64,000 nt of DNA, from IMG/VR virus record IMGVR_UViG_3300032046_000010, positions 29,063 through 93,062 of that record; one strand, written 5' to 3'. Numbering within the stretch: position 1 is the first letter of the stretch; each line of letters begins with the position of its first letter. The notes under the pieces were generated by a model. It saw only the letters and a program-made list of their open reading frames with translations. It was not told the DNA's origin and made no database searches. This document shows positions 2,084-63,710 of this stretch, piece by piece. The position numbers and the translations under genes are program-made. This DNA comes from a virus.

Positions 2084-2087
2084 GACA

Positions 2088-4021: not shown

Positions 4022-4988
4022 TCGCCGCCCTCCACCGCTCCGCCCGCTCCAACGCCTTGTCCATCGTCATCCGGGGGTCCCATTGAGCGAACCGGCCCAA
4101 CACCAACACGTTGGACGGATGCTGGAACACCGGAACCTCCCCGAACACATGAGCGGTGCGGATGTATCGCGGCTTGCCGACAATGCTGGCGTCGGAGCCG
4201 AACACAGAGTTCACGTCCAACATCAGCGCCCGCTCCGACACACCTTCAGCGTTGTAGGCTCCGTCTGGCAGCGGTGACAAGCGATACAGGGAGTTGCCCG
4301 GCGTGTACGGCGTGTACACGAAGTCCCAGTCCACGAAGTCCCGACAGGATGGCGCTTCAACCCTCGCCATGTAGGCGTCTGAAGCATGGAGCGGAACCGG
4401 CGAACGGATGCCCAGCATCGACAACGTCAGTGGTAGCGGCAGCGTCCAGACCAGATGGCTGTACTCCAAGTGTTCCTGGTCGTCGCCGCTCAGGGCCGAC
4501 CGGCGAACGTCCAGTGTGTTCGCTCCTGGGTACCAAGCCACAACTCCCTTGCGCAACACCTTGACTCGGTCCTCCACAGCCCGCCCCAACGCTCCCACGG
4601 ACACCATGTACCGCTGCGGGCCTGCTTGCCCGCCCTCGTTCATCGCTGTGTCGTGGAACCCATAGGTGGTCCGGCGAGTCTTGGTGTAGTGGTGAAGCAC
4701 AAACTGGCGCAACGGTTCCTTCCCGAAGTGGTCGGCCGCAGCCTTGAATGAGTACACACGCCCCTTCAGATACAGGCCAGAACGCACAGCCCGCTGCTCA
4801 CATCGGATACCCCAGACCTTGAAAGTGCTGTCGAACAGTTCTGACTGATGGATGTAGAACAGCCCGCCTCCGCCGGGGTTGCCCCCGGTTCCAAGCGGGT
4901 CGATGACAGTGACCTCGTGGTGTTTGGCCAGCACCAGAGCCGCTGCGACTCCGGCCGGGCCTCCGCCCACGATGATGATCGGCTTCAT
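4011..4988 (-). CDS. FAD-dependent oxidoreductase or lyase
   Basis: The 325-residue protein begins with a Rossmann dinucleotide-binding motif, GGGPAG at residues 8-13, followed by an acidic-ended second strand and a Gly-rich loop (GNPGGGG). A C-terminal strand VLVLGRFAQWDP resembles the second FAD contact of NAD(P)-binding_8 or UDP-galactopyranose-mutase-like enzymes. In thymidine-hypermodifying phages an FAD enzyme acts on amino-acid-conjugated thymidine; a similar role is possible here but unproven. ATG 4988 overlaps the previous stop (ATGA). Confidence 0.85.
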   Translation of the reverse strand: MKPIIIVGGGPAGVAAALVLAKHHEVTVIDPLGTGGNPGGGGLFYIHQSELFDSTFKVWGIRCEQRAVRSGLYLKGRVYSFKAAADHFGKEPLRQFVLHHYTKTRRTTYGFHDTAMNEGGQAGPQRYMVSVGALGRAVEDRVKVLRKGVVAWYPGANTLDVRRSALSGDDQEHLEYSHLVWTLPLPLTLSMLGIRSPVPLHASDAYMARVEAPSCRDFVDWDFVYTPYTPGNSLYRLSPLPDGAYNAEGVSERALMLDVNSVFGSDASIVGKPRYIRTAHVFGEVPVFQHPSNVLVLGRFAQWDPRMTMDKALERAERWRAANGL

Positions 4989-6097
4989 GGCGGGGCCTCC
5001 AACGGTGGCGGCTGGTTGCGTGGCGGGGGCATCTCCAGGATGCCTTCACGCATCATCCGCCCGATCAGCTTGGCAGCCGCTCGGGCAAGGTCGGGAGTCC
5101 GCACGCCTCGCCAAGCAACCGGCATCGCCGGGTCCGTCAACTGCTTCAGCTTGGCTCCCGGTAGCGCCAAAGCCTTGTCCCAAGTGGTGCTGAACGCGAT
5201 GTCCAACCGCTTGGCCAGAGGCTTCAGCTTGATCACGCAGACCTTGGCATAATGGCCGCTCGTGGCGATGTACACAGTGATGTAGTTTGACTTGTCAGTC
5301 ACACGGTTGACGAACACGTCGCCCGGGAGCGCCCCGCTGCGCTTGGCCTTCCAATCGTACCCCAACCTGAACAGAGACAACTGGAGCCGCTTCAGGAAAG
5401 CATCGACCAGCGGTTCAAGGTCGCTGAACCGCCCTGGATCGGTCGGCCGCTTCCGCTTCTCACGCTTCACCAACTTGGCCACCAGCGTGCCCTTGGCCTT
5501 CCCGGTCGCCTTCGGAACCACGATGGCAGGTGGCGTGATCTTGTTGATGTACTTCCGCTCGATGTCGGCCAGTTCCACGTTGAGCGCATGAGGGTCCGTC
5601 CGCTCATCCATGAACCGCTCCGCCGTCAAGGAGTGTTCCATCAGGTACAGCTTCAGCGAGTAGCAGCGCGCACGCCAAGTACAAGCCGACTCGACATGCC
5701 CAGACGCCTTGTTGTAGCCTCCGTCGCAGGTCGAACAGTGGTCATGGTAGCCCAGGCACTCAGGTACGGTCACCGTCATCCGCGCCTCCTGCTGCGGGAA
5801 GCCTACGTCATCAATCCACGGGATGGGAATCGAATCTTCAATGCCGTCATTGCCCCTTACCCTGAACTCATCCCAGCACACCTGGCCGACCATCACCAAC
5901 GTTGAAGCCCACCCGGCATCCCCGTCGCTCACGAACGCCACTTGGCCCCAACAGTAGCGTTCTGTGTTGATCGTCCGCTTCCCATCCTTCCATGAGGCCC
6001 ATCCGCCGGGCATCGGCTTCGGGCCTAGACTGTGACGCCGGATGATGCGGGACACGAACCTGAAGTCCAGAGGCTTGATGGACTCGTGGATTGCCAT
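4985..6097 (-). CDS. Unknown Cys/His-rich protein of the nucleotide-chemistry cassette
   Basis: I do not recognise this 370-residue protein. A cluster of Cys and His (C114, H118, H120, C121, C124, H134, C139, C145) could bind zinc or an iron-sulfur centre. A Lys/Arg-rich stretch follows near residue 220, and the tail is Pro-rich. It sits between the sigma factor and the FAD gene with a one-base gap and an ATGA overlap, so it is co-translated with the cassette. ATG 6097 is preceded by CGGGAGG inside the end of the sigma gene. The frame runs on upstream, but that part is a shadow of the sigma gene. Confidence 0.85.
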   Translation of the reverse strand: MAIHESIKPLDFRFVSRIIRRHSLGPKPMPGGWASWKDGKRTINTERYCWGQVAFVSDGDAGWASTLVMVGQVCWDEFRVRGNDGIEDSIPIPWIDDVGFPQQEARMTVTVPECLGYHDHCSTCDGGYNKASGHVESACTWRARCYSLKLYLMEHSLTAERFMDERTDPHALNVELADIERKYINKITPPAIVVPKATGKAKGTLVAKLVKREKRKRPTDPGRFSDLEPLVDAFLKRLQLSLFRLGYDWKAKRSGALPGDVFVNRVTDKSNYITVYIATSGHYAKVCVIKLKPLAKRLDIAFSTTWDKALALPGAKLKQLTDPAMPVAWRGVRTPDLARAAAKLIGRMMREGILEMPPPRNQPPPLEAPP

Positions 6098-6098
6098 C

Positions 6099-6743
6099 TC
6101 AAGCCTCCCGCAAAACCTGACGAGCACGTGCCAGAGCGGACTTGACCCTGGCGGCCGGGATGCCCAGATGTTCCGCCAACATGTTCTCGGTGATGATCGG
6201 CTTCCCGGGTCGAACGTTGCGAGCCATGATCTCCAGTTCAGGTGGAGGACACAACCGTGCAGACAACACCAGCCGGTCCACCTCATCCAACCGCTGGATG
6301 ATGCGCTCGGTGACCCAGGCCTGCTGCTCATGTTCCTGGGTAGCTTCCAAACAGGCTGGGTCCGTCACGTCAGCATCGTTTTCCGCTGTGGAGCCGAACC
6401 CGGCCAAGCGCTGGTGCTTGGGAGACACACCATCGCCTTCATCGATGCGTGGTGCTCGTTTCAGCGCCAGTTCGTAGTTGACGATGGCCAACAGCGCGTT
6501 GCGCACAACCAGGTCAACCCAAGTGCGGAGTGCCCGGCCGCGCTCCGGCTTGTGCGTGGCCACGGCATAGATGGCGGCGATGCGAGCCTCTTGAAGCAGT
6601 TCAAAATGGTTCAAACCTGGGATGCGCTTGAACGGACGCGCCTTGGCATGGATCACGTCCTCCAGTTGAGGCAACAGCTTCGCCAGCGTCGGCTTCAACT
6701 CGTCAGGGCATGTCCAGCCTGTAGGAACGATATGCGGTGCCAC
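6099..6743 (-). CDS. Phage-encoded sigma-70 family factor
   Basis: The 214-residue protein has a region-2-like segment: a helix with LLQEARIAAIYAVATHKPERG, then ALRTWVDLVVRNAL, matching the pattern that contacts core polymerase and the -10 element. Its C-terminus is a region-4-like helix-turn-helix (LAEHLGIPAARVKSALARAR). Regions 1 and 3 are absent, as in minimal or ECF-like factors. I chose the GTG at 6743 because AGGAGGG lies just upstream; an in-frame TTG at 6767 overlaps that site. It probably redirects host RNA polymerase to phage promoters; the repeated motif near 8748, 11001 and 12299 is one candidate target. Confidence 0.8.
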   Translation of the reverse strand: MAPHIVPTGWTCPDELKPTLAKLLPQLEDVIHAKARPFKRIPGLNHFELLQEARIAAIYAVATHKPERGRALRTWVDLVVRNALLAIVNYELALKRAPRIDEGDGVSPKHQRLAGFGSTAENDADVTDPACLEATQEHEQQAWVTERIIQRLDEVDRLVLSARLCPPPELEIMARNVRPGKPIITENMLAEHLGIPAARVKSALARARQVLREA

Positions 6744-6824: not shown

Positions 6825-8048
6825 CTACCAGTCCTTGACGCCCAGCTTGAGCATCCCCATGGTGATCCACTTGGTCACCAGGGCGCGCAGGCGCGGTTCG
6901 ATGGCCTCGACCACCTTGACGCGGATGGCTTCCTTGTTGCCCTGGACCTCCACCAGCGGCTTCTTGCCGCCGACCGGCTCCAGCTTGACGCTGGCTCCGG
7001 CCTTGATGGGCCGGACGGTGAGCAGGTGCGGCTTGCCGCCCATGTTCATCGTCGTGGTGTAGACGTTGCCCTTCACCACGCCGCCCTTCTCCGGCTTCGG
7101 CTCCGTGCTGCGGGGCCGTCCCGGGCCGCGCTTGGCGGGCTGCGCCGCCGGGGCGGGGGTTGCCGCCTTGGCCGCCGGGGTCGGCTTCGCGGCCGGGGTC
7201 GGCTTGGCCGCCGCCGGGGCGGGGGTCGGCTTCGCCGGGGTCGGCTTCGCCGGGGTCGGCTTCGCCGGGGTCGGCTTCGCCGCCACCTTGCTCTTGGTGT
7301 CCTGCTTGCCCTTCGTTCCCATGTTGTCCTCCTGGCCGTCATCGGCCGTGGTTGCGCCGTCGGCATCGCTGCCTTCGGCATCCTCCCCGTTCCCGTCGCC
7401 GTCGCCGGCATCATCGTCGGCATCGGCATCGGCATCGTCGTCGGCATCGTCGGGGTCGGGGTCCGGGTCCGGCTCCACGACCTTGGCCGGAGGCTTGCCG
7501 GTGCCCTTGGCCTTGGCCTTGGGCTGCTCCGGCTCCGGCTCGCCCGCGCCCGCGTCCGGCTCCGCCGTCGTGGCCTCCGGTTCCGCATCCGGCTCCGTGG
7601 CCTCCGGCTCCGTGGCCTCCGGCTCCGCCGTCGTGGTCGTCGCCTTGGCACCCTTCTTCACGATGATCTTCTTGCCCATGACGCCTTCCTCCTGTTGACG
7701 GGGTCCACCCGCCAGCTTCGTGGTCACCGGGATGTCCAACGCCTCCCGTGTGAACCGTTTGCCCACTTCGTGGAACCGGAAGATGAACAACCCGTCCATC
7801 CCCAGACCCACGCGCTTGATGATCTCCATCAGCTGGTCGTCGGTCGGCTCCGACTCCCGGCTGTCCAACACCACCACCGACTCCCGCTGCGTCTTGCTGT
7901 AGTAGCCCGCCGCGCAGAAGCTCCCTTCCAGCAACCCAGTGGTCTTGCCGTTCTGGAACACGCCAGTCACCAGCGACACCAACCACACGTCCGGTGCGAC
8001 GGGCTCAACCACCAGTTCCTTGCCGACATTGGGTTCGTATCCGATCAT
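6825..8048 (-). CDS. Acidic/basic bipolar protein with AT-hook and nested starts
   Basis: The 407-residue reading frame has four zones: a folded N-terminal domain (about 1-120), a Glu/Pro/Asp-rich acidic zone (about 135-240), a basic Pro-Thr-Pro-Ala-Lys repeat zone (about 255-305) with an AT-hook core (KRGPGRPRS), and a folded C-terminal domain. The basic part resembles histone H1-like tails and suggests DNA binding. Two internal ATGs each have a strong ribosome site: 7679 behind AGGAGGAAGG and 7322 behind CAGGAGG. Three in-frame products are therefore likely. No catalytic motif was seen. Confidence 0.8.
   Translation of the reverse strand: MIGYEPNVGKELVVEPVAPDVWLVSLVTGVFQNGKTTGLLEGSFCAAGYYSKTQRESVVVLDSRESEPTDDQLMEIIKRVGLGMDGLFIFRFHEVGKRFTREALDIPVTTKLAGGPRQQEEGVMGKKIIVKKGAKATTTTAEPEATEPEATEPDAEPEATTAEPDAGAGEPEPEQPKAKAKGTGKPPAKVVEPDPDPDPDDADDDADADADDDAGDGDGNGEDAEGSDADGATTADDGQEDNMGTKGKQDTKSKVAAKPTPAKPTPAKPTPAKPTPAPAAAKPTPAAKPTPAAKAATPAPAAQPAKRGPGRPRSTEPKPEKGGVVKGNVYTTTMNMGGKPHLLTVRPIKAGASVKLEPVGGKKPLVEVQGNKEAIRVKVVEAIEPRLRALVTKWITMGMLKLGVKDW
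7222..7281 (-). repeat. Four perfect tandem 15-base repeats (PTPAK codons)
   Basis: Four identical copies of ggggtcggcttcgcc (plus strand) encode consecutive Pro-Thr-Pro-Ala-Lys units of the basic tail. Identity at the DNA level points to recent slippage or unequal recombination, so copy number may vary between isolates. Confidence 0.9.
7679..7693 (-). promoter_or_regulatory. Internal ribosome binding site and start within the AT-hook gene
   Basis: The minus strand reads AGGAGGAAGG about five bases before ATG 7679, in frame with the long gene. The product would begin MGKKIIVKK and keep the acidic and basic zones without the N-terminal domain. The second nested start, ATG 7322 behind CAGGAGG, would give a purely basic AT-hook protein. 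Confidence 0.6.
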
Positions 8049-8780: not shown

Positions 8781-10979
8781 CTACTGCGCCACCCGACGCA
8801 CCCGGCCGTTCATCAGCTTCGCCGCCACGGCCTTGAACAGCGCCTTGGGGAGCGCCGCCAGATCCCAAACAACCTCCGCATTGCGATAGAAGCTCGTCAC
8901 CGCATCGCTCTGGATTCCGATTCCCACGACCTCGATGCCGCGCTTTTCAGTCGCCCGCACCACGTCCTTCAGGTGCCGCCCCTCGATGCTACGCTCACGC
9001 TCATTGCGCCGGGTGTAGTTGCCGCTCACGTTGGCGCGCTTGGGGTCGTAGGTTCCGCCGGTCACGGTCGAAGTCCCGGCCGCAGGTTGACCATCCGACA
9101 GGACGATCAGCACCTTCCGCTCCTGGGGCTGCTGCGCCAGCAGGTCAGCGACCATCTGGAGCGCATCGCCGTCAGCGTTGTTCGCCCGGCCGTTGATCTT
9201 CACCAGGCGGGAGCGCACACGCCGGAACTGCTCGCTGAAGCTCTTGTACTGGTACAGGTGGATCGACTCATTGCGGCCGTTCCACCAGCTTCCAGCGTCC
9301 AGCGTGTCGTCATCAGTCGTCACCATCCCGCTGGTGAACCCGTAGATTGCGAAGGGCACGTTGAGGGCCGTCAGCGTCTCACCCAGGGCAACCGCCGCCA
9401 GCTGGGCCGTCGCCGCCTTGACTCCGCCCATCGAGCCGGACTCATCAACCAGCACCGCAACCGCCGGGACCTCATCCAGCGTCGTGATCTTGCGGGAGAA
9501 CACGCGCCGCTCGCCGGTCACCGCCCGGTACAGAGCCGCGCTGTCCAGCTTCCCTTCCTCCTGGTCGGGGTCGTTCTGGACGTCAGCCTTGCCCTTGAGG
9601 ACCATCATCAACTTGGAGCGGAGGCCGCCAACGACTCCCGCGACCATCTGCTTCAGCTGGGCGTAGTGCGCATCGCTGCTCAACTCTTGGACGATGATCT
9701 TGTCAGCCGCCTTGGCGCTTGGCCGGGCCACGTAGCGGCCATCGCTCTGCGCCGCGCTGGAGGCGTCCTTGCTCAGCTGGTCGCGCACCGCGTCCATCAT
9801 GTCCTTCGCAGCGTCATCGAACAGGTCATCAACCGGCTTGGAGTCGGTCGGGTCATCATTGATCTTGGTGTTGTCGCTGGCGCCCACGTTGCCGCCCGCC
9901 TCGCCGGTCTCAGCCTCGCCACCCTCCTGGTCACCCTGATCCTCGCCAGTCCCTTCCTGCTCGCCCTTCCCGGCCGACCCTTCCTGGTTGCCTTCCTCGC
10001 CGTCCTCACCCTCAACAGCGCCGTCGTCGCCTTCCTCGCCCTCGTCACCGCCGTCCTCATCCTCGCCCTCGCCCGCACCACCCTCACCGTCGTCGCCCTC
10101 GTCGCCCTCGTCGCCCTCGTCATCCGACTCGCCCTTGGACTCGCCCTTGGTGTCCTGCTCGCCGTCCTCAGCACCGTCGTCGCCCGCACCGTCGTCGCCC
10201 TCGTCAGCCTCGCCCTCATCACCCTCATCGGCCTTGCCCTGCTCGCCCTTGCTCTGGGGCTTGGACTCGGGCTTGGACTCGGGCTTGGACTCGGGCTTGG
10301 ACTCGCCCTGCTCGCCGTCCTGCGACTCCGGCTGGGTCGGCTGGGTCATCGCGTCCCGCAGCGTCTGCTCAACCAGGTGCATCATCGACTCAACCTTGTC
10401 GTACCCAGCGCCGCGAAGCTCCGCCATCCTGGGGAGCAGCTTGGCAACCGCGCCTTCCAGCCGGGGGTCCAAGGTCACGGCCGACTCACCGAACGACCGG
10501 AGATACAGTTCAGAACCGAACCCGTGAAGCCCACTGGTGTAACCCGGGGTCGCCGCGTTGCGCTTGATCAGCTTGACGCCGTAGCGCCGGAGCGCCGACA
10601 GGTTCCGCTCAACGCCCTCAAACGGGTTGCCCATCTCATCGTGGATGTCGGCCACGATGTTCAGGATGCTGTGGCGGGTCTTGGAGACCTTCATCGCCTC
10701 GGTGATCAGCTCACTCGGCAGCTTCACGGTGGCGCCAGCCGCCCGCGCCGCAACCGCCGCTTGCTCTTCACGAGCGTGGCAAGTCTCATGGTCCAGCATC
10801 CCCTCGACCACCGCCACAACGTCCTCACCCATCTCATCGACGTTCTCAGGCAGCTGGATCAGCTTCTGGTCGAACAGGAACCGACAGGCGGTCCCGGCCT
10901 GGACTACCTTCAACCCGGTGTCGGCGCTGAAGGTCCTGGCCACCTTCCCCATCGTTCCTTCCTGCGTCCGGTTCTTCAT
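8781..10979 (-). CDS. CobT-like VWA-domain protein with HExxH motif
   Basis: The 732-residue protein partners in sequence logic with the AAA+ ATPase upstream. An N-terminal helical domain carries HETCH in LDHETCHAREE, an HExxH metal-binding pattern. A long acidic Asp/Glu/Gly linker follows. The C-terminal von Willebrand A domain has a full MIDAS start (VDESGSMGG) and a later VLSDGQP strand. MoxR/CobS-type ATPases with VWA partners act as chaperone-like remodelling machines or metal chelatases in bacteria; the phage role is unknown. ATG 10979 follows TGGAGGCGAAG; an in-frame ATG at 10952 behind GGAAGG is an alternative. Confidence 0.88.
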   Translation of the reverse strand: MKNRTQEGTMGKVARTFSADTGLKVVQAGTACRFLFDQKLIQLPENVDEMGEDVVAVVEGMLDHETCHAREEQAAVAARAAGATVKLPSELITEAMKVSKTRHSILNIVADIHDEMGNPFEGVERNLSALRRYGVKLIKRNAATPGYTSGLHGFGSELYLRSFGESAVTLDPRLEGAVAKLLPRMAELRGAGYDKVESMMHLVEQTLRDAMTQPTQPESQDGEQGESKPESKPESKPESKPQSKGEQGKADEGDEGEADEGDDGAGDDGAEDGEQDTKGESKGESDDEGDEGDEGDDGEGGAGEGEDEDGGDEGEEGDDGAVEGEDGEEGNQEGSAGKGEQEGTGEDQGDQEGGEAETGEAGGNVGASDNTKINDDPTDSKPVDDLFDDAAKDMMDAVRDQLSKDASSAAQSDGRYVARPSAKAADKIIVQELSSDAHYAQLKQMVAGVVGGLRSKLMMVLKGKADVQNDPDQEEGKLDSAALYRAVTGERRVFSRKITTLDEVPAVAVLVDESGSMGGVKAATAQLAAVALGETLTALNVPFAIYGFTSGMVTTDDDTLDAGSWWNGRNESIHLYQYKSFSEQFRRVRSRLVKINGRANNADGDALQMVADLLAQQPQERKVLIVLSDGQPAAGTSTVTGGTYDPKRANVSGNYTRRNERERSIEGRHLKDVVRATEKRGIEVVGIGIQSDAVTSFYRNAEVVWDLAALPKALFKAVAAKLMNGRVRRVAQ
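10257..10304 (-). repeat. Four tandem 12-base repeats in the acidic linker of the VWA gene
   Basis: Four adjacent copies of gggcttggactc (plus strand) encode Glu-Ser-Lys-Pro units. The wider region (10080-10240) also repeats Gly-Asp-Glu codons. These are slippage-prone coding repeats in a disordered linker. Confidence 0.85.
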
Positions 10980-11000
10980 CTTCGCCTCCACGCTCCTACC

Positions 11001-11021
11001 AGTAAGCGAAAACCGGGCCGT
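11001..11021 (-). promoter_or_regulatory. Conserved intergenic motif, copy 2
   Basis: The minus strand reads GGCCCGGTTTTCGCTTACT, 22 bases upstream of ATG 10979, with the same spacing as copy 1. It overlaps the T-run that follows the hairpin at 11015-11034, so this copy could be both a terminator tail and a promoter. Confidence 0.5.
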
Positions 11022-11034
11022 TTGTGAACGGCCC
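11007..11034 (-). terminator. Hairpin plus T-run after the AAA+ ATPase gene
   Basis: A perfect 8-base stem (gggccgtt/aacggccc) with a TGTG/CACA loop lies a few bases after the AAA+ stop. On the minus strand it is followed by GGTTTT, a short U-run set two bases off the stem. It could partly terminate transcription before the VWA gene. Confidence 0.5.
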
Positions 11035-11046
11035 TGGTTCCCAGTC

Positions 11047-12252
11047 CTAGTAGAACACGCGGTCAACGATGGCCTTCACGTAGGCGCGGTCATCCTTGCC
11101 CAGCCGGTTCAGGATGGCGACCGCAGCCGCCTTCCGCGCGTTGCCCCACTTCACGGTCAGCTTGGCCCAGGTGAGCAGCCGCCGGGTGCTCATCGTACAG
11201 AAGCACTCTTCACGGATCAGGCCGTCGCGGACCTTGCGAGCGATGTCCACCATCTTGCCAGCCACGTCCTTGGTGACGCCGGTCTTGGTCACGAGCACGC
11301 TGATCTCCTGGGGTCCCTGGAGATAGGAGACTTCCATCACCACGCCGAACCGATCCAGAGTGGCCTCGTTCAGCACGTTGGTCCCGGTGTACATCCCGCT
11401 ATCGTCGCCGCGCCCCAGGGTGTTCGCCGTAGCGATGATGCGGAAGTTGGAGTGGACCTTCACGACCTCGCCGTTGTTCTCTGCCAGGACCAGCGGGTGA
11501 CCGGGCTCAAGCACCGACTGAAGCCGCATCATGATCCGCGCGGGAGCCGCGTCCAGCTCATCGATGATCAGCCAGAAGCCCTTGCGCGCGCACTCCGTCA
11601 GGATGCCATCCTTCCAAAGCACGACCGTCGCACCAGATTCCGACTCCGCCAGCACCTTCTCACCCACGAAGTCCGCCACCCTGAACTCGCCGTTCATGTT
11701 GACGCGCTTGGTGGGCTGGTTCATCAGGGACGCCAGCTCAAACGCCAGGCTGGTCTTGCCACAGCCCGCCGGGCCGACCATCAGCACGTTGGTGTCCATC
11801 TCAACGCCAACCGCCATCTGCTCCAGGGTCTCATCATCGAAGTCGAACATTTCATCGTGCTTCGGAACGTACAGTGCGTCATCCTCGCACACGTCGTCAC
11901 GGACCTTCAAGACCGCCTTGCCGATGGAGAGGCAACCGGGCGGGAGCGCCGGAGCGGCCGGGGTCGGCTTCGCGGCCGGGGCAACCGGGGCGGGAGCGGC
12001 CGGGGCGGGGGTCGGCGTGGACGACGGAACGGTCCAGCCGGTGCCGCGCGCACCCTTGGTGTGGCCCTTGCTCAGCTGACGCCGTCCGTAGGTGCTGATC
12101 GTCTTGGAACCGGGGTACTGGCGGCGGTATTCCATCGTGCTCATCCCGTGGGCCGACTTGAGGTGGACGGCCAGCGTGTGGTAGTACTGCCCACAACGTT
12201 CGCACTTCACCATCGCGTTTCCGTCGCGGTCGGCCGGGTTGAAGTTTGCCAT
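11047..12252 (-). CDS. CobS/MoxR-like AAA+ ATPase with MucR/Ros-like zinc finger
   Basis: The 401-residue protein starts with a zinc-finger-like unit: C17 and C20 in CERCG, H30 and H35, then AHGMSTMEYRRQYPG, the signature of MucR/Ros-type fingers. An Ala/Pro linker leads to an AAA+ domain with Walker A GPAGCGKT (160-167), Walker B WLIIDELDA (Asp231-Glu232) and sensor-like ATANTLGRGD. It would power the VWA protein encoded next. The start at 12252 uses GGAGGATGAGGAAC; an upstream in-frame ATG (12261) touches its own Shine-Dalgarno and is less likely. Confidence 0.9.
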   Translation of the reverse strand: MANFNPADRDGNAMVKCERCGQYYHTLAVHLKSAHGMSTMEYRRQYPGSKTISTYGRRQLSKGHTKGARGTGWTVPSSTPTPAPAAPAPVAPAAKPTPAAPALPPGCLSIGKAVLKVRDDVCEDDALYVPKHDEMFDFDDETLEQMAVGVEMDTNVLMVGPAGCGKTSLAFELASLMNQPTKRVNMNGEFRVADFVGEKVLAESESGATVVLWKDGILTECARKGFWLIIDELDAAPARIMMRLQSVLEPGHPLVLAENNGEVVKVHSNFRIIATANTLGRGDDSGMYTGTNVLNEATLDRFGVVMEVSYLQGPQEISVLVTKTGVTKDVAGKMVDIARKVRDGLIREECFCTMSTRRLLTWAKLTVKWGNARKAAAVAILNRLGKDDRAYVKAIVDRVFY

Positions 12253-12269
12253 GTTCCTCATCCTCCATC

Positions 12270-55133: not shown

Positions 55134-55835
55134 CTAGTCTGTTTCAGCGTTCAAGGGAAGATCAGGCAAATCCGGTGGAGGCTGCGTTGGTTTCTTTCGC
55201 ACTATCACTCGCCTGGTTGCGGCCGCGTGTCCGCCGGACGCCTTGCTCATCCCGCCCTTCGACCGTGAGAGGGCAGCAGCCTTCTGCGCCGGAGTCGGGG
55301 CCAGTTGGATTGGCTCGTGGGTACGCATTGGAGGCTTTGCTTCCAACATCGGGATCTCGCCGTAGCGCGACATCACAGACTGGACAGCCTCCAACTGGAC
55401 CGCAATCTTGGCTCTCAGTTCGCTGTCGTTCAACTCGCTGACAGCGACTCCAGCGATGACCAGATGGCGCTCCGCCGCCTTGTGGATGAGACCTAGCTCC
55501 TGCCCGGTCTTGAGGATGCGGTCGATGATCTCGGACTTGGCCCGCGCCGCTCCCACTACCGCCTGAGGTTGGTTCCCATTTGTCCACTTGTGGATCAGCC
55601 GGTCCAGGTCCTTGATGACGCCTTCCTGCCGCAAGCAGTAGTCTGTGAACATCTGCTCTGGCGGTTTGTCAATCCTGGACAGCCGGTCCTCTGCGTACAG
55701 CTTGGCCATCAGGTCGTTGAAGTCGGCCTCCGTCAACTCCATGTCTTCCATCAGGCGCTGAGGGGTGACTCCGGCCGCCAGCTGAGCACGGATGGCCGCT
55801 ACCAGGAACCGGGTGCCGGTACGGGGTGGGCTCAC
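55134..55835 (-). CDS. Probable terminase small subunit
   Basis: The product (233 residues) starts at GTG 55835, whose GTGA overlaps the previous stop. An N-terminal helix-turn-helix-like region (RAQLAAGVTPQRLMEDMELT) precedes a long helical middle (VIKDLDRLIHKW, SEIIDRILKTGQELGL) and a basic Pro-rich tail. Position before the large terminase and the helical DNA-binding layout support TerS; sequence alone is not decisive. Confidence 0.65.
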   Translation of the reverse strand: MSPPRTGTRFLVAAIRAQLAAGVTPQRLMEDMELTEADFNDLMAKLYAEDRLSRIDKPPEQMFTDYCLRQEGVIKDLDRLIHKWTNGNQPQAVVGAARAKSEIIDRILKTGQELGLIHKAAERHLVIAGVAVSELNDSELRAKIAVQLEAVQSVMSRYGEIPMLEAKPPMRTHEPIQLAPTPAQKAAALSRSKGGMSKASGGHAAATRRVIVRKKPTQPPPDLPDLPLNAETD

Positions 55836-56485
55836 AGGCTGCCAGCCGCCTTCACTGCCACGGTGTCGTAGCGCCAGCGCTTGGCGATGCGATAGAAGGC
55901 ATTGCCCTGCGGGTTGATACCAGGAGGCTGACGCCACATCAAGCCCTTGGCTCCGCCAAACGCAGTGCGACAGGCAAAGCCCACCTGGTCCGGGGTCAGG
56001 TTGCGCTGCCGGACGCCCAGGTGCTTGGCGTAGTAGAAGCAGGGGCTGTAGAAGTGAACCAGCCCCATCAGTTCCTCGTTGGGCGTCACCATCAACACCG
56101 GGCAAAGGATGTTGCGGACCAGCTGGACAAGTCCTGCCGGGAAGCTCTGGAGCGTCATCTTGACGATGGCCTCCCGCCGTAGCTCCCGCTCATCCACGTG
56201 CTTCGGGTCCTTGTCCTTGCTCCCGCCGTTGAGGAACTTCGGGTTGATGGGCTGGCTGTAGGCTCGGATGAACTGTGTGAAGCTCTTGTACAGCGGGAAC
56301 AGCATCGCGTAGCGGTTGATCATGGTCCACAGGACGGCCGCGCCTTCCCCGTCCAAGTGGCAGTCGCCGCCTGCCTCCCCGTACAGCATCCGTGCCGTCC
56401 ACTCGATGTCCGCCTTGTCGAGCTGGGTGAGGGACGTTCCCTTCAGGCAGATGACGCCCGGCTTCGGATCAGCGCTTCCCGCCAT
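55832..56485 (-). CDS. SleB-like cell-wall hydrolase
   Basis: The 217-residue protein has the hydrolase_2/SleB opening (WTARMLYGEAGG, then GEGAAVLWTMINRY) with the catalytic glutamate in YGEAGG. The remainder is variable with a QNLTPDQVGF-like helix. No signal peptide is present, so it would need a holin or act in the virion. It could be the main endolysin. Confidence 0.7.
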   Translation of the reverse strand: MAGSADPKPGVICLKGTSLTQLDKADIEWTARMLYGEAGGDCHLDGEGAAVLWTMINRYAMLFPLYKSFTQFIRAYSQPINPKFLNGGSKDKDPKHVDERELRREAIVKMTLQSFPAGLVQLVRNILCPVLMVTPNEELMGLVHFYSPCFYYAKHLGVRQRNLTPDQVGFACRTAFGGAKGLMWRQPPGINPQGNAFYRIAKRWRYDTVAVKAAGSL

Positions 56486-57113
56486 GCTTCACGCTCCTGT
56501 CCTGTTCCCGCTGCTCCCGCTTGTCATCACGGCGCAGCTGCTTCTTGAGTCCCGCGATCTCCGATTCCATCGTCTGGAACCGATCCACGTTCTTGTCCTG
56601 CTGTTCCTTGGCCTGCTGACGGCTGGGCAGCGCGTCCAGTTCCCGCTTCCACTTGGCGATCTGCTCGCCCGCCGTGTTGAGACAGGTGTTGATCTTGGTG
56701 TCGAGCCGCTTGATCTCGTCCACCTGCTTCTTGAGCCGCCCCTCCCACTCCCGCTCCTTGTCCTTGGTGTAGGAGTCGAGCACGCCCTTCAGCTTCGCCG
56801 CCTCCGCCGGGAGGGTCTTGCGGATGGCCTCCAAGGCTTCCTCAACCTTGTCGAAGCCTTCCTCCACATCTTCCACCTTGGCGAAGTCCGGCCGCTGCTC
56901 CGGCTGGGCTTCCGCTTCGGGGTTGATGAGAGGCTTTGTGGCCACTTCATCACGGACATGGCGCATCATCTCCAGCTGTTCTTCGGCCATGTCGCCTACG
57001 AACGGTGGATGGTGCTCCACGTGTTCCGCCGTCTGCTGGAACGCCTCCGCCATCTCCGGCGTCAAGGCCAACTGACCTTCTGCGACCTCCGGCTGCTGGG
57101 TCCCGTCGTTCAT
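56469..57113 (-). CDS. Coiled-coil hypothetical protein
   Basis: The 214-residue protein has a Glu-rich first half and a long coiled coil from about residue 85 to 200 (KVEEALEAIRKTL, KKQVDEIKRLDTKINTCLN). ATG 57113 follows GGAGGGTGAG. It overlaps the hydrolase gene by 17 bases. It may be a head-assembly or packaging accessory. Unrecognised. Confidence 0.75.
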   Translation of the reverse strand: MNDGTQQPEVAEGQLALTPEMAEAFQQTAEHVEHHPPFVGDMAEEQLEMMRHVRDEVATKPLINPEAEAQPEQRPDFAKVEDVEEGFDKVEEALEAIRKTLPAEAAKLKGVLDSYTKDKEREWEGRLKKQVDEIKRLDTKINTCLNTAGEQIAKWKRELDALPSRQQAKEQQDKNVDRFQTMESEIAGLKKQLRRDDKREQREQDRSVKHGGKR

Positions 57114-57124
57114 CTCACCCTCCA

Positions 57125-57601
57125 TCATCTTGGCCACGGTGTTGTTGGCTGTTCCTCGCCATTGACCCCGTGGTAGCAGAACCTTTCGCGCTCCGAACCA
57201 TAGCAGTCATCGCTGCGGCAGCACACCAACAGCTTGACCTCGACCTCGTCACATAGCTCCCAGGTGTAATGAGGCCGAACAGCTGGGAACAGTTTGGCCT
57301 GATAGCCAAGACGGCACGGGATCGGCCCGATGCTAGGTGACGGAATGTCCTGCCCTGGGCCCAAAACACGGTATCCCTGCGCCACAATCCACCCTTCGTG
57401 GGCGGGAGTACACCCCAGCAGGGGAATGACCACTAGCATCCACTTCCACATCAAGCGTTTCACGTACCTGACGCGCCTCAGCAAGTCGGATTCTGGATGG
57501 GACGGACGATTGGGGGCAGGGTGGAGAGTGTCGTGGAGTTGAGACAGGCCGGAACCAGCCATTCTGGAGTCGGTCTGCCGCGTTTTGGCTCGCTCTCTCA
57601 T
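57125..57601 (-). CDS. Putative lipoprotein with Cys-rich mature domain
   Basis: A lipobox (VVIPLLGC) follows a hydrophobic run beginning MWKWM. The mature part of about 95 residues has several Cys (CRLGY, LCDE, VCCRSDDC, FCYHG). The only strong ribosome site (GGGAGG) precedes ATG 57601, which would add about 49 residues before the signal; GTG 57463 would give a normal signal. Either the start is 57463 or two forms are made. It could serve as an outer-membrane spanin or host-surface factor. Confidence 0.6.
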   Translation of the reverse strand: MRERAKTRQTDSRMAGSGLSQLHDTLHPAPNRPSHPESDLLRRVRYVKRLMWKWMLVVIPLLGCTPAHEGWIVAQGYRVLGPGQDIPSPSIGPIPCRLGYQAKLFPAVRPHYTWELCDEVEVKLLVCCRSDDCYGSERERFCYHGVNGEEQPTTPWPR

Positions 57602-58314: not shown

Positions 58315-58523
58315 CACTTCTTGCTCGCTGGTTTGCCAGTTGGTGGAGCCGGGGGCAGCGCTTTCCGCTTCAACCCATGCTTCAGCTTGTCGTACCAGTA
58401 CACCGCCTCACGCGGAGGCATCGGCCCGTACTGCTTCTCAACACCCGTATCCAACCAGGTCACAACAACAAACCATTCCAGCCCTTCCCGCGCGATGACC
58501 CGGATGTACTTGCGACGCTTCAC
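58314..58523 (-). CDS. Small basic protein starting MKRR
   Basis: The 69-residue protein starts at GTG 58523 (GTGA overlap). It has a strand pair (YIRVIAREGLEWFVVVTW) and a helix (EAVYWYDKLKHGLKRK). Its start MKRR and layout resemble the protein at 58923-59102, a possible distant paralogue. Confidence 0.65.
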   Translation of the reverse strand: MKRRKYIRVIAREGLEWFVVVTWLDTGVEKQYGPMPPREAVYWYDKLKHGLKRKALPPAPPTGKPASKK

Positions 58524-58795
58524 GGTTCCAGCCCTTGGCAGGAATGAAGATGGATGCGCAGCCGGTCTGCGATGCCCAAGGTCCCGTTCCCATCATAGGT
58601 GTACCGGAGCGCCGTGGACGCCACGGTCAAAACCGTACAGTGACACAGCTTACAGCGAAACAGGATGACATCATGGTACGGGTCCGGCTCGATGTTGAAC
58701 AAGCCCAGCAGGTAGTTGGGAAGGTCATTGCGGAGCGGCCCAAGGCATTCGGGTAGCTCACGCCCTTCCGCGTCGTGGAGCCTGTATCCAATCAT
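58520..58795 (-). CDS. Small Cys/His protein, zinc-finger-like
   Basis: The 91-residue protein has CKLCHC near residue 48 and HLHSC near the C-terminus, a likely CxxC...HxxxC zinc site. It starts at an ATGA overlap with the preceding tiny gene. Probably nucleic-acid or protein binding; unrecognised. Confidence 0.68.
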   Translation of the reverse strand: MIGYRLHDAEGRELPECLGPLRNDLPNYLLGLFNIEPDPYHDVILFRCKLCHCTVLTVASTALRYTYDGNGTLGIADRLRIHLHSCQGLEP

Positions 58796-58926
58796 TCGTC
58801 ACTCTGCTGGTCTGTCCGCTGGCCCGCTTCCGGCTCGCACCCTCCATCGTCCCAGACGATGGCAAGGAACACCAATGTCGCAACCAGGACCACGAAGCAG
58901 ACGGCTGAGCGGTAGGCGACGGTCAC
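58792..58926 (-). CDS. 44-residue single-helix membrane protein
   Basis: The frame begins at GTG 58926 (GTGA overlap with the previous stop) and ends with a TGA inside the next gene's ATGA. One membrane helix (CFVVLVATLVFLAIVW) is followed by an acidic tail. Both junctions are coupled, which supports translation. Function unknown. Confidence 0.62.
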   Translation of the reverse strand: MTVAYRSAVCFVVLVATLVFLAIVWDDGGCEPEAGQRTDQQSDE

Positions 58927-59102
58927 AGCTTCGGCTCCGCCACGTCAACCACCACATACCGCACACGCTTGTCGCCCCAGAGTTTGGACACCCACTTCTG
59001 CGCTGCTCGCCGGGTGAAGTGCAACTTGTCGGTCAGGACCCACGGCCCGCTCGACACCATCTCGGGCAGGTACACGAACACCAACCAGATGCGACGCTTC
59101 AC
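58923..59102 (-). CDS. 59-residue protein
   Basis: The product runs from GTG 59102 (GTGA overlap) to TGA 58923. It begins MKRRIWLVFVYLPE and has WVLTDKLHFTRRAAQKWV, resembling a short strand-helix unit found in small phage proteins, and ends with a valine-rich strand. Function unknown. Confidence 0.62.
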   Translation of the reverse strand: MKRRIWLVFVYLPEMVSSGPWVLTDKLHFTRRAAQKWVSKLWGDKRVRYVVVDVAEPKL

Positions 59103-59362
59103 TGCTTCCCTCCAAACATCGCGTACAGCTTCCGCGCCTCCGACTCCGCCGCCTGCTTCGCCTCGACCTCCGTATCACATCGCACGGGGTCGCAGAGCCG
59201 GTGGTTGGTCAGTCGGGGTCCGTCGAACACGCACCCGTACCAGTACGGCATGATGCGCCAGATGCGGAGGTGGAAGATGGTCCGGCCGTCCGGTGCCGTC
59301 AACAGCGCCTTCCGGGTGCCGTTCCCGTTCTTGGGCTGCCAGTCGTCGCAGATCCAGCCCAT
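59099..59362 (-). CDS. Hypothetical protein
   Basis: The 87-residue protein has a beta-rich start (MGWICDDWQPKNGNG, then FHLRIWRIMPYWYGCVF) and a C-terminal helix (EAKQAAESEARKLYAMF). It overlaps its neighbours by single or few bases (TGATG, GTGA). Function unknown. Confidence 0.65.
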   Translation of the reverse strand: MGWICDDWQPKNGNGTRKALLTAPDGRTIFHLRIWRIMPYWYGCVFDGPRLTNHRLCDPVRCDTEVEAKQAAESEARKLYAMFGGKQ

Positions 59363-60060
59363 CACTTCACATCCAGAAGCTTGGCGAACACATGCTGATC
59401 CATCCCTCCTATGGAGATTCCCCAGTTGTTCGCCTCGCGCACCGCTTTCTGGTGCACGTCATAGGCGTTCTGGAACTGGATGATGAGCTGCTTGATGGCC
59501 ATGGAGTAGGCCACCTTGAGCACCATGTCGTTCGTGGTGGCCATCAACTCGTTGAATTTGGCCCACTGACTCTGGACGTAGGCGAGGTGGGCTTGCTGAA
59601 CCACCACACCCCGCATAGCAGTCAGGTAGCGCATCGCCCTCACAGGGTCGATGTGATTGGACAGCGCGATGCGCAGCATTTTCATCACTGCTTCGTCCCA
59701 CGGCACGCTGTAGGAACATCCGCGCGTTTTGCCAGCCTCCATCTTCAGTGTGCTCAGTTCCGCCAGCCGGTCCTCCACGACAGTGTGAAGGCGATCAACT
59801 GCTTCCTCCCGGGTCCGGCCGGACGGTCCCACCAAACGCTCACGGTTGGGCAACACGATGTATGCCTCCCACTTGGAGTTGTCGGGAGCCGGTTCCACCG
59901 CGCAGTTCATCAACGGCATGTTCTTGGTCTTCATGTTCCGCCTCGCCCGCTGTAGCTCGCTGATCACCCAGAAGTCGCAATCTGACGTAGGGTGTTTCAG
60001 CAGACACCCGCCCTTGTTGATGGGTGAGCGAGCGCAATCACGGCATCGCTTGGACTTCAT
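59362..60060 (-). CDS. Hypothetical protein with N-terminal Cys cluster
   Basis: The 232-residue protein starts MKSKRCRDC at ATG 60060 behind CAGGAGGTCGAAG. Two more Cys follow within 20 residues, a likely zinc site, and the rest is mostly helical (AVDRLHTVVEDRLAEL, AYSMAIKQLIIQFQNAYDV). No family recognised. Its leader contains CTAGACTCCGG. Confidence 0.75.
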   Translation of the reverse strand: MKSKRCRDCARSPINKGGCLLKHPTSDCDFWVISELQRARRNMKTKNMPLMNCAVEPAPDNSKWEAYIVLPNRERLVGPSGRTREEAVDRLHTVVEDRLAELSTLKMEAGKTRGCSYSVPWDEAVMKMLRIALSNHIDPVRAMRYLTAMRGVVVQQAHLAYVQSQWAKFNELMATTNDMVLKVAYSMAIKQLIIQFQNAYDVHQKAVREANNWGISIGGMDQHVFAKLLDVK

Positions 60061-60082
60061 CTTCGACCTCCTGCACCGGAGT

Positions 60083-60331
60083 CTAGTGTTCCGGCTCGCC
60101 GTCTGGCCGTTCCTCACCCGATGTGCCGATGGTGACCGGTGCCGGTAGCTTGTGTCCCTGGATGATTGCTAGGCCGATAGCTCCCGCAATCTTGGCCGCA
60201 TTCTCGCCGGTCCACTCGTACACCACACCATCTTCCCGTTCGACCCGAACCTTGACAGTGCGCGGTGGAGCCGTACCCAGGATCAAGTCCGCCAGCAGGA
60301 TGTTCAGGAGCCGGTGAGGATCAAGGGGCAT
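60083..60331 (-). CDS. Small hypothetical protein
   Basis: The 82-residue protein starts at ATG 60331 behind GGAGCGGACG and overlaps the previous gene by 11 bases. It has a strand pair (TVKVRVEREDGVVYEW) and an Ala-rich helix (AAKIAGAIGLAIIQG). Function unknown. Confidence 0.68.
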   Translation of the reverse strand: MPLDPHRLLNILLADLILGTAPPRTVKVRVEREDGVVYEWTGENAAKIAGAIGLAIIQGHKLPAPVTIGTSGEERPDGEPEH

Positions 60332-60731
60332 CGTCCGCTCCAGGCGGGATGCAAGCCATGTCCACGATCTCCAACGCAAAACAGGACTGGCTATCAGGCA
60401 TCGGCTCGTGGCAGTAGACATACCAGGTTTCCTGCGCCCTGGTGCTACAGTTGTCGCCGTCCGCTGCGTACACGGCATCCCGCTCGATCACCACGGTGTA
60501 AGACTGTGCTGGGCGTGTCCATGATGGGTCCGTCGCCACAGCGCCGTCGCCGTTGTGCTGGACGGCAACGATTCGCCTCCCGCTCTCAGCAGGGTCGCTT
60601 CCCGCCACCTCAACCATCATCGCATGAGACTCCATCAGAACATAGAGTCCAGCCAGCGCCCGCTCGTGCTGGAGGCTTCCGGGCAAGCCTCCCGTCGCCA
60701 ACATCGCAACCAACGATAACAACCATTCCAT
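60321..60731 (-). CDS. Exported hypothetical protein
   Basis: The 136-residue protein has a signal-like N-terminus (MEWLLSLVAMLATGG) and a mature part with pairs of Cys (DNCSTRAQ, VYCHE, SCFAL, MACIP). Disulfides in the periplasm are likely. ATG 60731 follows GAGGTGAAGCG. Function unknown. Confidence 0.68.
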   Translation of the reverse strand: MEWLLSLVAMLATGGLPGSLQHERALAGLYVLMESHAMMVEVAGSDPAESGRRIVAVQHNGDGAVATDPSWTRPAQSYTVVIERDAVYAADGDNCSTRAQETWYVYCHEPMPDSQSCFALEIVDMACIPPGADDAP

Positions 60732-60740
60732 CGCTTCACC

Positions 60741-61103
60741 TCACCACAACAGTTCAGGGTACGATTGAGTGAACGACTCGCCAACACACCAGCAGAACGC
60801 CGGAGCCGCTCCCTTTGCTGGGATGTAGATCGGGGTGTGTCCTCCCCAGTTGGGGCGTGTTTCGCAGAGCACGCTGCCGGAAGTCTCGCACCGTAGTTTC
60901 CACTGCTCCGCCTCCATCCGTCCGTGGGCCATACAGGAGTCCACGCACTGTGCCTGCGTCGCAGAGGTGCTGGGCGCGCAACTCCCCGCCATCTCCCTAG
61001 ACGCGCTCCAATGCCCCAGGGAGTGCCCGATGGTGGCGCCAACGACCAAGATGAACAGGAGCGCCAGCAACCCAGCGATCACGTTCTTGGTACGGTCTGT
61101 CAT
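60741..61103 (-). CDS. Membrane-anchored Cys-rich protein
   Basis: The 120-residue protein has one N-terminal membrane helix (VIAGLLALLFILVVGATIG) and a Cys-rich outer part (CAPS, QCVDSC, RCETSG, LCETR, FCWCV). The ATG at 61103 follows GAGGTGGGCA; an upstream in-frame TTG is less likely. It probably acts in the periplasm. Confidence 0.72.
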   Translation of the reverse strand: MTDRTKNVIAGLLALLFILVVGATIGHSLGHWSASREMAGSCAPSTSATQAQCVDSCMAHGRMEAEQWKLRCETSGSVLCETRPNWGGHTPIYIPAKGAAPAFCWCVGESFTQSYPELLW

Positions 61104-61111
61104 TGCCCACC

Positions 61112-61636
61112 TCAACCGTGCGGCGCGTCCGGCGCAACAACCCGCCAGAGCAGATCCATCGCCGCCTTCTGCTGTGCGAAGTTGTTCTGTGCCGCACCAA
61201 GGCGAAGCTTGTTGCCGGGCCAGCGCCTCGCCTCCCGAAGCTCCCGGCCCACCGCCTTCATCGCCTCCGTCATCTCGGACAGCAGCGCCTCCTGCTGGGC
61301 GACGGTCAGATGCTCGACCGTGGGGCGAAGCTCCGTGGCGCGGTTCGCCCGCGACAAGTCCCAGACCACGAGATCAGACGGCTGGATCAGGTCGCTCAGC
61401 CGGTTCATGCGCACCAGGTTGCCGATGGCGTCCTTGGGAAACAGCGCCGTGCTGATGGTGGCCAAGAAACGCCATGCCAGGTGTCGGGTGGTGATCAGGG
61501 TCTGGAGCAGTTCCGCCGGCAGGATCTCGGGAGCCTCGACCAGCGCGATGGGAGCGATGTACGGAGCCGTCCGGGTCGCCTCCTGCTCGTCATCCTCGGT
61601 GTTCGGTGCCGTGAACAGGTGAAGTGTCTGGGTCAT
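61112..61636 (-). CDS. Hypothetical helical protein
   Basis: The 174-residue protein has an acidic N-terminus and is mostly helical (ELLQTLITTRHLAWRFLATI, QQEALLSEMTEAMKAVGREL). ATG 61636 overlaps the previous stop (ATGA). Function unknown. Confidence 0.75.
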   Translation of the reverse strand: MTQTLHLFTAPNTEDDEQEATRTAPYIAPIALVEAPEILPAELLQTLITTRHLAWRFLATISTALFPKDAIGNLVRMNRLSDLIQPSDLVVWDLSRANRATELRPTVEHLTVAQQEALLSEMTEAMKAVGRELREARRWPGNKLRLGAAQNNFAQQKAAMDLLWRVVAPDAPHG

Positions 61637-62079
61637 ACCCCACGCTCCCTCGCAAAGTTGGTGAACGCCATTACCATCGAAGCCTTCAGGACCTCGTGGA
61701 ACGCAGGCAGGATGATCGCGGATTCCTGCGCGTGGGAGTAGGCCAAGGCCAGGAACAGCGCGACCACCGCCGTTTCATCCGATTGTCTGATGGTCTCTGC
61801 GATACGTGCGGCTGCCCCCTTCGGAGTCTCCCTCACGATGAGCAGCAGGATGCGTCGCGCGATGTCGGCCAGGCTCGACCTGAGCTGATAGTCCGACATG
61901 ATGTAGTCAGTCAGCACCAGCTTGTATGTCTGGATCTCCCGCTTGGCGCGGATGCCAGTGGCGCCCACGGCGAGCCACTTGGCCCAAGGCGCAGAAGGGA
62001 TCACGCCAGCATCCCCGGCAAGCGCCAAGAGGTGCGAGATCACCACGATGGGGTCGTTCTTTGACTTGTATCGGCTCAT
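61633..62079 (-). CDS. Hypothetical helical protein
   Basis: The 148-residue protein is helical throughout (LADIARRILLLIVRETPKG, VVALFLALAYSHAQE). It starts behind GGCAGGAGGCGACG, after a CTAGACTCCGG motif, and is co-translated with the next gene. Function unknown. Confidence 0.75.
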   Translation of the reverse strand: MSRYKSKNDPIVVISHLLALAGDAGVIPSAPWAKWLAVGATGIRAKREIQTYKLVLTDYIMSDYQLRSSLADIARRILLLIVRETPKGAAARIAETIRQSDETAVVALFLALAYSHAQESAIILPAFHEVLKASMVMAFTNFARERGV

Positions 62080-62105
62080 CGTCGCCTCCTGCCTCTGGCC
62101 GGAGT

Positions 62106-62375
62106 CTAGGGCATAGCGCCAAGGAACACTGTAGGAAACAAAACGGCCCTGGCTCCGTGTGGGGTGCCAGGGCCGATTCCCTTTGCCTGGGAGCTAGCTG
62201 ACCGTGCGCCATCTGCACGCGCCAACCCCTGGGCCGTGGATACGGCGCATCTGGGCGGCCCAGGCCCAGAGCGGAGTGACTCAACATGGCGCTCCCTCCG
62301 GCCCACACGCCGAAGCATCAGGACGGCCGCCAGTAGCAGCATTACCAGGAGGGCAATCTGTAGCAGGACGGCCAT
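62106..62375 (-). CDS. Small membrane protein, C-terminus overlaps a terminator
   Basis: The 89-residue frame starts with a strong membrane helix (LLQIALLVMLLLAAVLML) and a basic segment. The last 25 codons cross a clear rho-independent terminator, so the C-terminal part looks non-functional or the frame may be longer than the real gene. The start has only a weak ribosome site. Confidence 0.5.
   Translation of the reverse strand: MAVLLQIALLVMLLLAAVLMLRRVGRRERHVESLRSGPGPPRCAVSTAQGLARADGARSASSQAKGIGPGTPHGARAVLFPTVFLGAMP
62136..62175 (-). terminator. Rho-independent terminator
   Basis: Perfect 10-base arms cggccctggc (62144) and gccagggccg (62166) with a 12-base loop are followed on the minus strand by TTTTGTTT. 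It is the most canonical terminator in the window and would separate the 62.4-64 kb genes from the operon downstream. Confidence 0.8.
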
Positions 62376-62397
62376 CGCGCCGGGAGACTAGAGCAGG

Positions 62398-63492
62398 CTA
62401 CCAGGGCTCACCCAGGAAGCAGAACGACCGGAACGCCAGCGGGCCGTAGGTCACAAGCGGCCGGGCTGGAGGATGCGGAGCAGTTGAGCCGCACTCGGCC
62501 AGATAGCCAGGGACCACGGCCATCGCAAAGGTCGTGATGGCAGAGCAAGCAGCGGTTGTCGTGTGGACGGCCACGTGTCCATCGATGCGGAACTCGGACC
62601 AGCCCGCTCCGGTCGCCGGGTCGCACACCTGTTCCTCTTGGACCTCGATGGGATTGGACGGTGCCCACGATGCGGTGCGGTCCAGCGAGACAAAACGGGA
62701 GGTGGTTGGGCTGTACTCCACGATGAAGTCGCCCAACCCGGAGTGCCAGACGTGACGGAGACAGGATGACGAGGGCAGGGGAGACACGCCCGGTAACACC
62801 AGAGTGTACGTCGCAAGGACGCGCCGCCAGGAGCCGCCATCCACGTAGAACAGGGCAACACGGTCGGTGACCGTCACCCAGTTCACGTTGCGTTGCGGGT
62901 CGGTGGTTCCTACCCACAGGAAGTCGGCCGGGGTGAACGGTGCGATGGACGTTCCAGACGTGTCCCAGTCGGAGCAGATTGTTGTGGGGGCAGGCGTGTC
63001 GGGCAATGCGTCTGCTTCAGGCGGCACATCTGCTTCCGGTAGCTCGTCAAGAGCATCGGGAACATCGGGAACATCAGGTAGGTCGGCCTCCGCTTCAACC
63101 TCTACATCTGGCTCCGTGTCGAGGATGTCCGTGAGGTCTGGGGGCGCGTCCGGCTCGATGTCGGCATCGGGTCCGGCATCGTCGGGGTCTGCGTCTGGAG
63201 GGGATGTTTCATCCAGCGGGACATCCGCGTCTGCAAGGATGTCCGTGGTCTCGACATCTGGGAGGATGTCGGGTTGGGCTTCATCCGGCGGGGCATCGGC
63301 CGTGTAGTCAGGCTCCGTCGCATCCGGTTCCGGTTCCGGTTCCGCATCCGCCTCCGACTCGATGGTGTCGGCGTCTGCGGGGGTATCGTCGGAGGCATCA
63401 GAGGCATCCGGCGACAGGTCGATGAACGTGTTGGAACAGCCGCCAGTGAGGGCGAATGTGAGGACTGCGATGATGGCTGCGGTGCGATTCAT
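62398..63492 (-). CDS. Acidic lipoprotein
   Basis: The 364-residue protein has a signal peptide ending in a lipobox-like ALTGGC (Cys19), then about 150 residues of Asp/Pro/Ala/Glu repeats, then a beta-rich C-terminal domain of about 190 residues with paired Cys. The layout resembles lipoproteins of Myxococcota and relatives. In a phage it may alter the infected cell surface, for example to block superinfection, or act in lysis; this is inference. It has a good start and overlaps the previous gene by four bases. Confidence 0.8.
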   Translation of the reverse strand: MNRTAAIIAVLTFALTGGCSNTFIDLSPDASDASDDTPADADTIESEADAEPEPEPDATEPDYTADAPPDEAQPDILPDVETTDILADADVPLDETSPPDADPDDAGPDADIEPDAPPDLTDILDTEPDVEVEAEADLPDVPDVPDALDELPEADVPPEADALPDTPAPTTICSDWDTSGTSIAPFTPADFLWVGTTDPQRNVNWVTVTDRVALFYVDGGSWRRVLATYTLVLPGVSPLPSSSCLRHVWHSGLGDFIVEYSPTTSRFVSLDRTASWAPSNPIEVQEEQVCDPATGAGWSEFRIDGHVAVHTTTAACSAITTFAMAVVPGYLAECGSTAPHPPARPLVTYGPLAFRSFCFLGEPW

Positions 63493-63710
63493 GGATGTTT
63501 CCTTCCTTGGCGTTCTATGCGGTCAATCTCAACCGCGAGATAGGCCCACGTGCCGTCTGCTGGGGGCGGGGCAAAGTCGCGTTCTTGTTCAAGGTAGAGG
63601 GTTGCTGCCGCAAGGGGAACCCAGGTGGATTCGCGCTGAGACCAGTACAGAGTCGGAGATGCCTTGTATCGTACAACGAGCAACTGGTCTATCTTGAGGC
63701 GTGTCGGCAT
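63489..63710 (-). CDS. Small hypothetical protein
   Basis: The 73-residue protein starts at ATG 63710 behind ACAGGAGGTCGAG. It is beta-rich (LLVVRYKASPTLYW, STWVPLAAATLYLEQE) and ends with a basic tail. It is coupled to the lipoprotein gene by ATGA. Function unknown. Confidence 0.72.
   Translation of the reverse strand: MPTRLKIDQLLVVRYKASPTLYWSQRESTWVPLAAATLYLEQERDFAPPPADGTWAYLAVEIDRIERQGRKHP

Follow-up and report, generated by a model that had tools for sequence, protein, structure and literature searches.

A predicted lipoprotein gene in phage DNA

The window analysed here is the whole 64,000-nucleotide stretch of DNA, positions 29063–93062 of a 93,062-base virus record. On its minus strand, at 62398–63492, lies an ATG-initiated open reading frame (ORF) with a good ribosome-binding site (AAGGAAGG 5′ of the ATG), which encodes an orphan predicted lipoprotein (P0001) of 364 aa, or 346 aa after cleavage. 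Codons 1–19 (MNRTAAIIAVLTFALTGGC; 63436–63492) were recognized, from the sequence and by lipobox scans with a PROSITE-like pattern, as a signal peptide ending in the putative lipid-attachment residue Cys19. The signal has the positive n-region, the hydrophobic h-region and the lipobox ending in Cys that are looked for in signal peptidase II substrates. The type-II motif reads L-T-G-G-C up to Cys19, with Ser at +2. Thr at −3 is unusual, Leu being the usual residue, but the pattern is still satisfied.

Residues 20–172 (62977–63435, minus strand) form, by composition, a 153-residue acidic stalk made up of 24.2% D, 18.3% P, 15.0% A and 11.1% E, with a net charge of −54. Of all 150-aa segments in any frame of the window, L002 and L003, the one richest in D+E+P (55%) belongs to this ORF, and the DNA of the stalk contains short tandem repeats with 6- and 9-bp units (63319–63356 and 63054–63075). 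The remaining 192 aa, residues 173–364 (62401–62976, minus strand), have six Cys, at positions 173, 244, 290, 316, 334 and 358. A single-sequence AlphaFold2 model of this C-terminal part had a mean pLDDT of 37 and was unusable. An earlier note on this DNA had described the ORF, its lipoprotein signal and its Asp/Pro-rich acidic tract, and all are present as it stated.

The length of the ORF alone is not significant, because 10 ATG-initiated ORFs of at least 364 aa were found across 30 Markov shuffles of this GC-rich window. Such chance ORFs, about one per three shuffled windows, would favour the view that 62398–63492 is a spurious open frame over repetitive, hexamer-like DNA, as would the lack of a relative on which to base a selection test. 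Against this view, the frame with the best codon score in both halves of the ORF is also the one that has the Shine–Dalgarno (SD) sequence, the signal peptide and the lipobox. An SD-preceded ORF with a lipoprotein signal reached at least 70 aa in one of 20 shuffles and at least 300 aa in none of 20, and 62398–63492 is the sole ORF of this kind in the real window; the combination of SD and lipoprotein signal exceeds chance. In codon scores computed against 11 confident phage genes, the annotated frame was the best of all six, both in the C-terminal part (0.076) and in the stalk (0.204). The whole-ORF score of 0.135 is the sixth lowest among 47 genes (median 0.381), in a ranking that takes in the 11 training genes. 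The ORF is coding, though atypical in codon use. We regard a spurious frame as highly improbable, and a real, envelope-targeted predicted lipoprotein as very probable.

Phage genome and gene neighbourhood

The first and last 126 bases of the virus record are identical and diverge within the next 9 bases; the phage genome is therefore circular, and 62398–63492 lies inside phage DNA. A host flank or a prophage edge as the source of the gene was ruled out by these identical ends, as in an assembled circle. The protein had been described in the earlier note as phage-encoded, lipidated and acidic, and this is borne out by the circular phage DNA, the predicted signal with Cys19 and the charge of the stalk, lipidation being probable.

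The phage encodes structural and packaging proteins (large terminase, portal, contractile tail sheath and tape measure) and a helicase, assigned with PHROGs, together with a baseplate OB protein and an XkdF-type protease, assigned with Pfam. Its replication and DNA-metabolism genes encode RecA, an HU-type protein, a DnaB-type helicase, a DnaE-like polymerase, an exonuclease, a RuvC-like resolvase and methyltransferases. From these we infer an uncultured, tailed, lytic-looking myovirus; ‘lytic’ is worded with caution because the absence of an integrase covers the proteins scanned, which represent part of the genes. The phage has no close named relative, every match being below 60% identity. Neither tRNA genes nor Rfam matches were found in the window, L002 or L003.

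Elsewhere in the phage, a CobT_C/VWA-domain protein adjoins a CbbQ/NorQ-type AAA ATPase (8781–12261, minus strand), a MoxR–VWA-like pair, and a metabolic-looking gene run occupies 815–6331 on the same strand, including a class-III aminotransferase (815–2161) and an FAD/NAD-binding protein (4011–4988). Outside the window, across the circular junction, an iteron-like array of 11 copies of TATCCTACC/GGTAGGATA covers 374 bp (L002:455–828; G000:C1:455–828), within roughly 2.3 kb of DNA in which no gene is convincing. Seven copies are on one strand and four on the other, three sit in near-perfect 30-bp tandem units, and L003 and the window contain none. By its sequence the array looks like an iteron origin or a partition site.

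The lipoprotein gene adjoins orphan genes and is located more than 8 kb upstream of the terminase gene, away from the tail genes. Directly upstream of it is a 73-aa ORF (63489–63710, minus strand; SD AGGAGGT), whose stop codon overlaps the lipoprotein ATG (ATGA), an arrangement like that of two genes coupled in translation. The coding status of the 73-aa ORF is uncertain, and its codon score of −0.275 is no better than that of the antisense frame. Relatives of the terminase were found at 26 IMG/VR loci. Among the 20 ORFs around the gene (54.2–63.7 kb), eight were matched in these loci, two of which (54682 and 55162) are probably shadows because of their wrong-frame base composition; none of the 11 most distal ORFs (58520 to 63710), which include 62398–63492, was matched. 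The missing matches for the distal block are suggestive only, because few relatives reach that far upstream: L009, L011, L023 and L025 hold 10 kb of upstream DNA and L007 holds 5.6 kb. The lipoprotein was likewise unmatched in the records of all four relatives searched (L005, L006, L007, with a 49.7-kb record, and L008), and neither a promoter-like site nor a convincing terminator could be assigned to the gene itself. The proposal that the gene is a moron is therefore compatible with its absence from these four records, its position in a block unmatched in relatives and its somewhat atypical codons. A classical independent unit is not what we see, given the same-strand gene run, the ATGA overlap and the want of a promoter-like site or convincing terminator.

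A second, small, Cys-rich predicted lipoprotein is encoded at 57128–57469 (minus strand), its true start probably being internal to the ORF at 57125–57601. Its signal reads ...WMLVVIPLLGC..., and it is 43% identical to L007:2320–2655, with Cys positions in common; no other relative was found in searches that included Pfam and an IMG/VR scan. Its codon score is weak, yet the best of six frames. A model with pLDDT 62 gave 104 PDB matches at an E cut-off of 10; the best of them had E 2.0, and none reached E 0.001. On this sequence comparison it is a conserved predicted lipoprotein of the phage group, separate from the finding at 62398–63492, and it is nearer in size to known exclusion and spanin lipoproteins than is the larger protein. 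The gene adjoins a coiled-coil-looking gene (56469–57137) and a conserved gene (55832–56485, minus strand), whose product is 59% identical to L007:3262–3906. The motif ADIEWxARMLYGEAGGD in the latter presumably recalls SleB-like cell-wall hydrolases, and no Pfam family matched the protein even at E 10. This neighbourhood may comprise lysis genes, an idea for which Pfam gave no match. IMG/VR scans with the neighbouring genes and the iteron returned the L007 contig or nothing.

Searches for relatives and the question of the host

The protein encoded at 62398–63492 matched no family in Pfam, PHROGs or NCBIfam and no PDB sequence. A tblastn search of 50,697 phage records gave nothing at E 1 or better, and one of plasmids gave a single match at E 3, which is not credible. 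IMG/VR scans with the whole protein and, separately, with its C-terminal part yielded no credible relative, and one scan of GTDB genome contigs, seeded with near-exact 8-mers, yielded none. Three metagenome-assembled genomes (MAGs) and five genomes from the phylum of the Gemmatimonadota MAG were also without relatives. Among 299 genomes from the phylum of the Emcibacteraceae MAG, three gave matches at E 0.002–0.006 per genome, approximately the chance expectation. Distant cellular homologues may exist, because the IMG/VR and GTDB scans require near-exact 8-residue words.

The earlier note had looked to a homology search with the C-terminal domain to reveal which bacteria carry it; as no collection searched held a credible relative, no bacterial carrier can be named. 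It had also taken the style of the lipoprotein, which it likened to that of surface lipoproteins of Myxococcota-like bacteria, as a clue to the host. Stalked surface lipoproteins with Asp/Pro linkers occur in Myxococcota and other bacteria, and a MYXO-CTERM tag has a membrane helix after its Cys motif. The protein has no MYXO-CTERM-like end, its C-terminus (FRSFCFLGEPW) being without a membrane helix. The Cys motif of this sorting tag is described in PMC11980579, and literature related to Asp/Pro lipoproteins of Myxococcota was not found. The stalk style is uninformative on Myxococcota, because acidic Pro-rich linkers are carried by two other proteins of the same phage, the CobT-like VWA protein (8781–11066; Pfam CobT_C) and the 6825–8048 protein. 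Together with the lack of a credible C-terminal relative, this leaves the clue unsupported; by the 8-mer-seeded GTDB scan, a Myxococcota host appears unsupported rather than excluded. A host call is not possible, because the terminase relatives in MAGs (Gemmatimonadota, Emcibacteraceae and Rhodobacteraceae bins) are 28–36% identical and the polymerase and tape-measure matches are below 60% identity, with mixed hosts.

Possible functions and known lipoproteins

The 62398–63492 product is most likely an accessory lipoprotein sent to the envelope of the infected host. The host Sec/Lgt/Lsp machinery would export and anchor it; should the E. coli +2 rule hold here, Ser after Cys19 would make the outer membrane the likelier destination. 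The stalk is probably an extended, disordered spacer that would keep the head off the membrane, either spanning the periplasm or projecting from the cell surface. At full stretch it would reach an estimated 50 nm or so at most, and the six-Cys head would contain disulphides. An envelope altered in this way would block sibling or rival phages, or spare progeny from being wasted on debris. Superinfection exclusion is our leading guess for the role of the protein, made with low confidence.

In another reading, which we consider somewhat unlikely, the gene is cargo that was taken from a bacterial host, and the surface lipoprotein it encodes would keep its donor role in adhesion, binding or nutrient capture and have no specific anti-phage role. 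A stalk with a Cys-rich head is the layout of bacterial surface proteins, the codon score lies in the low tail and the gene sits in the block unmatched in relatives, all of which would fit cargo. It is opposed by the lack of bacterial relatives in the GTDB scan, near-exact 8-mers only, and in the five genomes of the Gemmatimonadota MAG phylum, by nothing beyond chance in the 299 genomes of the Emcibacteraceae MAG phylum, and by the acidic Pro-rich linkers of other phage proteins. It is improbable that the product is a minor virion component or is associated with the tail, its hydrophobic N-terminus serving some other purpose: the gene shares its strand with the structural genes and is upstream of the terminase, but its product has typical n- and h-regions and a lipobox, and the tail block is distant (about 21–46 kb). 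The absence of any PHROG match, and hence of any match to a virion family, also speaks against this and agrees with the view in the earlier note that the protein is not a standard virion part. Rz1-type o-spanins are proline-rich lipoproteins, a likeness that would suit an outer-membrane, spanin-like lysis factor helping to disrupt the outer membrane. The protein is, however, far larger than Rz1, a partner with an N-terminal membrane helix was not identified beside its gene, and the conserved small lipoprotein at 57128–57469, 5 kb downstream, would be the better candidate; we consider this role very unlikely. Pfam and PHROGs assigned no lysis family among the neighbours tested.

With exclusion as the tentative preference, the gene is at present one more orphan accessory gene, whose main use is as a candidate for host-surface modification. 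It is unlikely that its product represents a family of large, stalked phage lipoproteins, of which it would be the first example, displaying a disulphide-bonded head at a distance from the membrane of the infected cell. If true, this would be a reshaping of the host surface unlike that by the tiny periplasmic exclusion lipoproteins of coliphages.

With stalked bacterial surface lipoproteins the protein has in common the layout of signal peptide, Cys anchor, acidic Pro-rich linker and Cys-containing head; a homologous head was not found, and the linker is of low complexity and not diagnostic. Ltp of the Streptococcus thermophilus phage TP-J34 is a phage lipoprotein exposed on the host surface for superinfection exclusion (PMC3952083). 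Ltp-type lipoproteins come from Gram-positive temperate phages, and the comparison with them rests on the phage tblastn search, which gave no match. According to PMC9586334 and PMC12685063, Llp of T5 and Rtp45 of Rtp block receptors from the periplasmic side, binding FhuA or LptD, and Llp/Cor and Rtp45 each have one intramolecular disulphide. Like Llp, Cor (T1, phi80) and Rtp45, the 62398–63492 protein is encoded by a phage and would be a disulphide-containing lipoprotein aimed at the envelope. Those proteins are tiny, Rtp45 being about 6 kDa (PMC12685063) and a comparison of Llp covering 61 atoms (PMC9586334), whereas the mature protein here is several times larger, with 346 aa and a 153-aa acidic stalk. 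Moreover, T5 llp adjoins the gene for the receptor-binding protein (PMC9586334), and orphan genes adjoin 62398–63492. Neither phage tblastn (50,697 records, E 1) nor PHROGs linked the protein by sequence to Llp, Cor or Rtp45. The exclusion guess is supported by the receptor blocking and intramolecular disulphides of Llp and Rtp45, and weakened by the far smaller size and different gene context of known exclusion lipoproteins, the lack of homology and the unusual Thr at −3. By this analogy the protein may, with low confidence, be Llp/Cor/Rtp45-like in effect, not in family. If exclusion or surface alteration is indeed its role, phage exclusion lipoproteins, so far of about 60 residues, would come to include a large, stalked form from an uncultured phage lineage without close named relatives.
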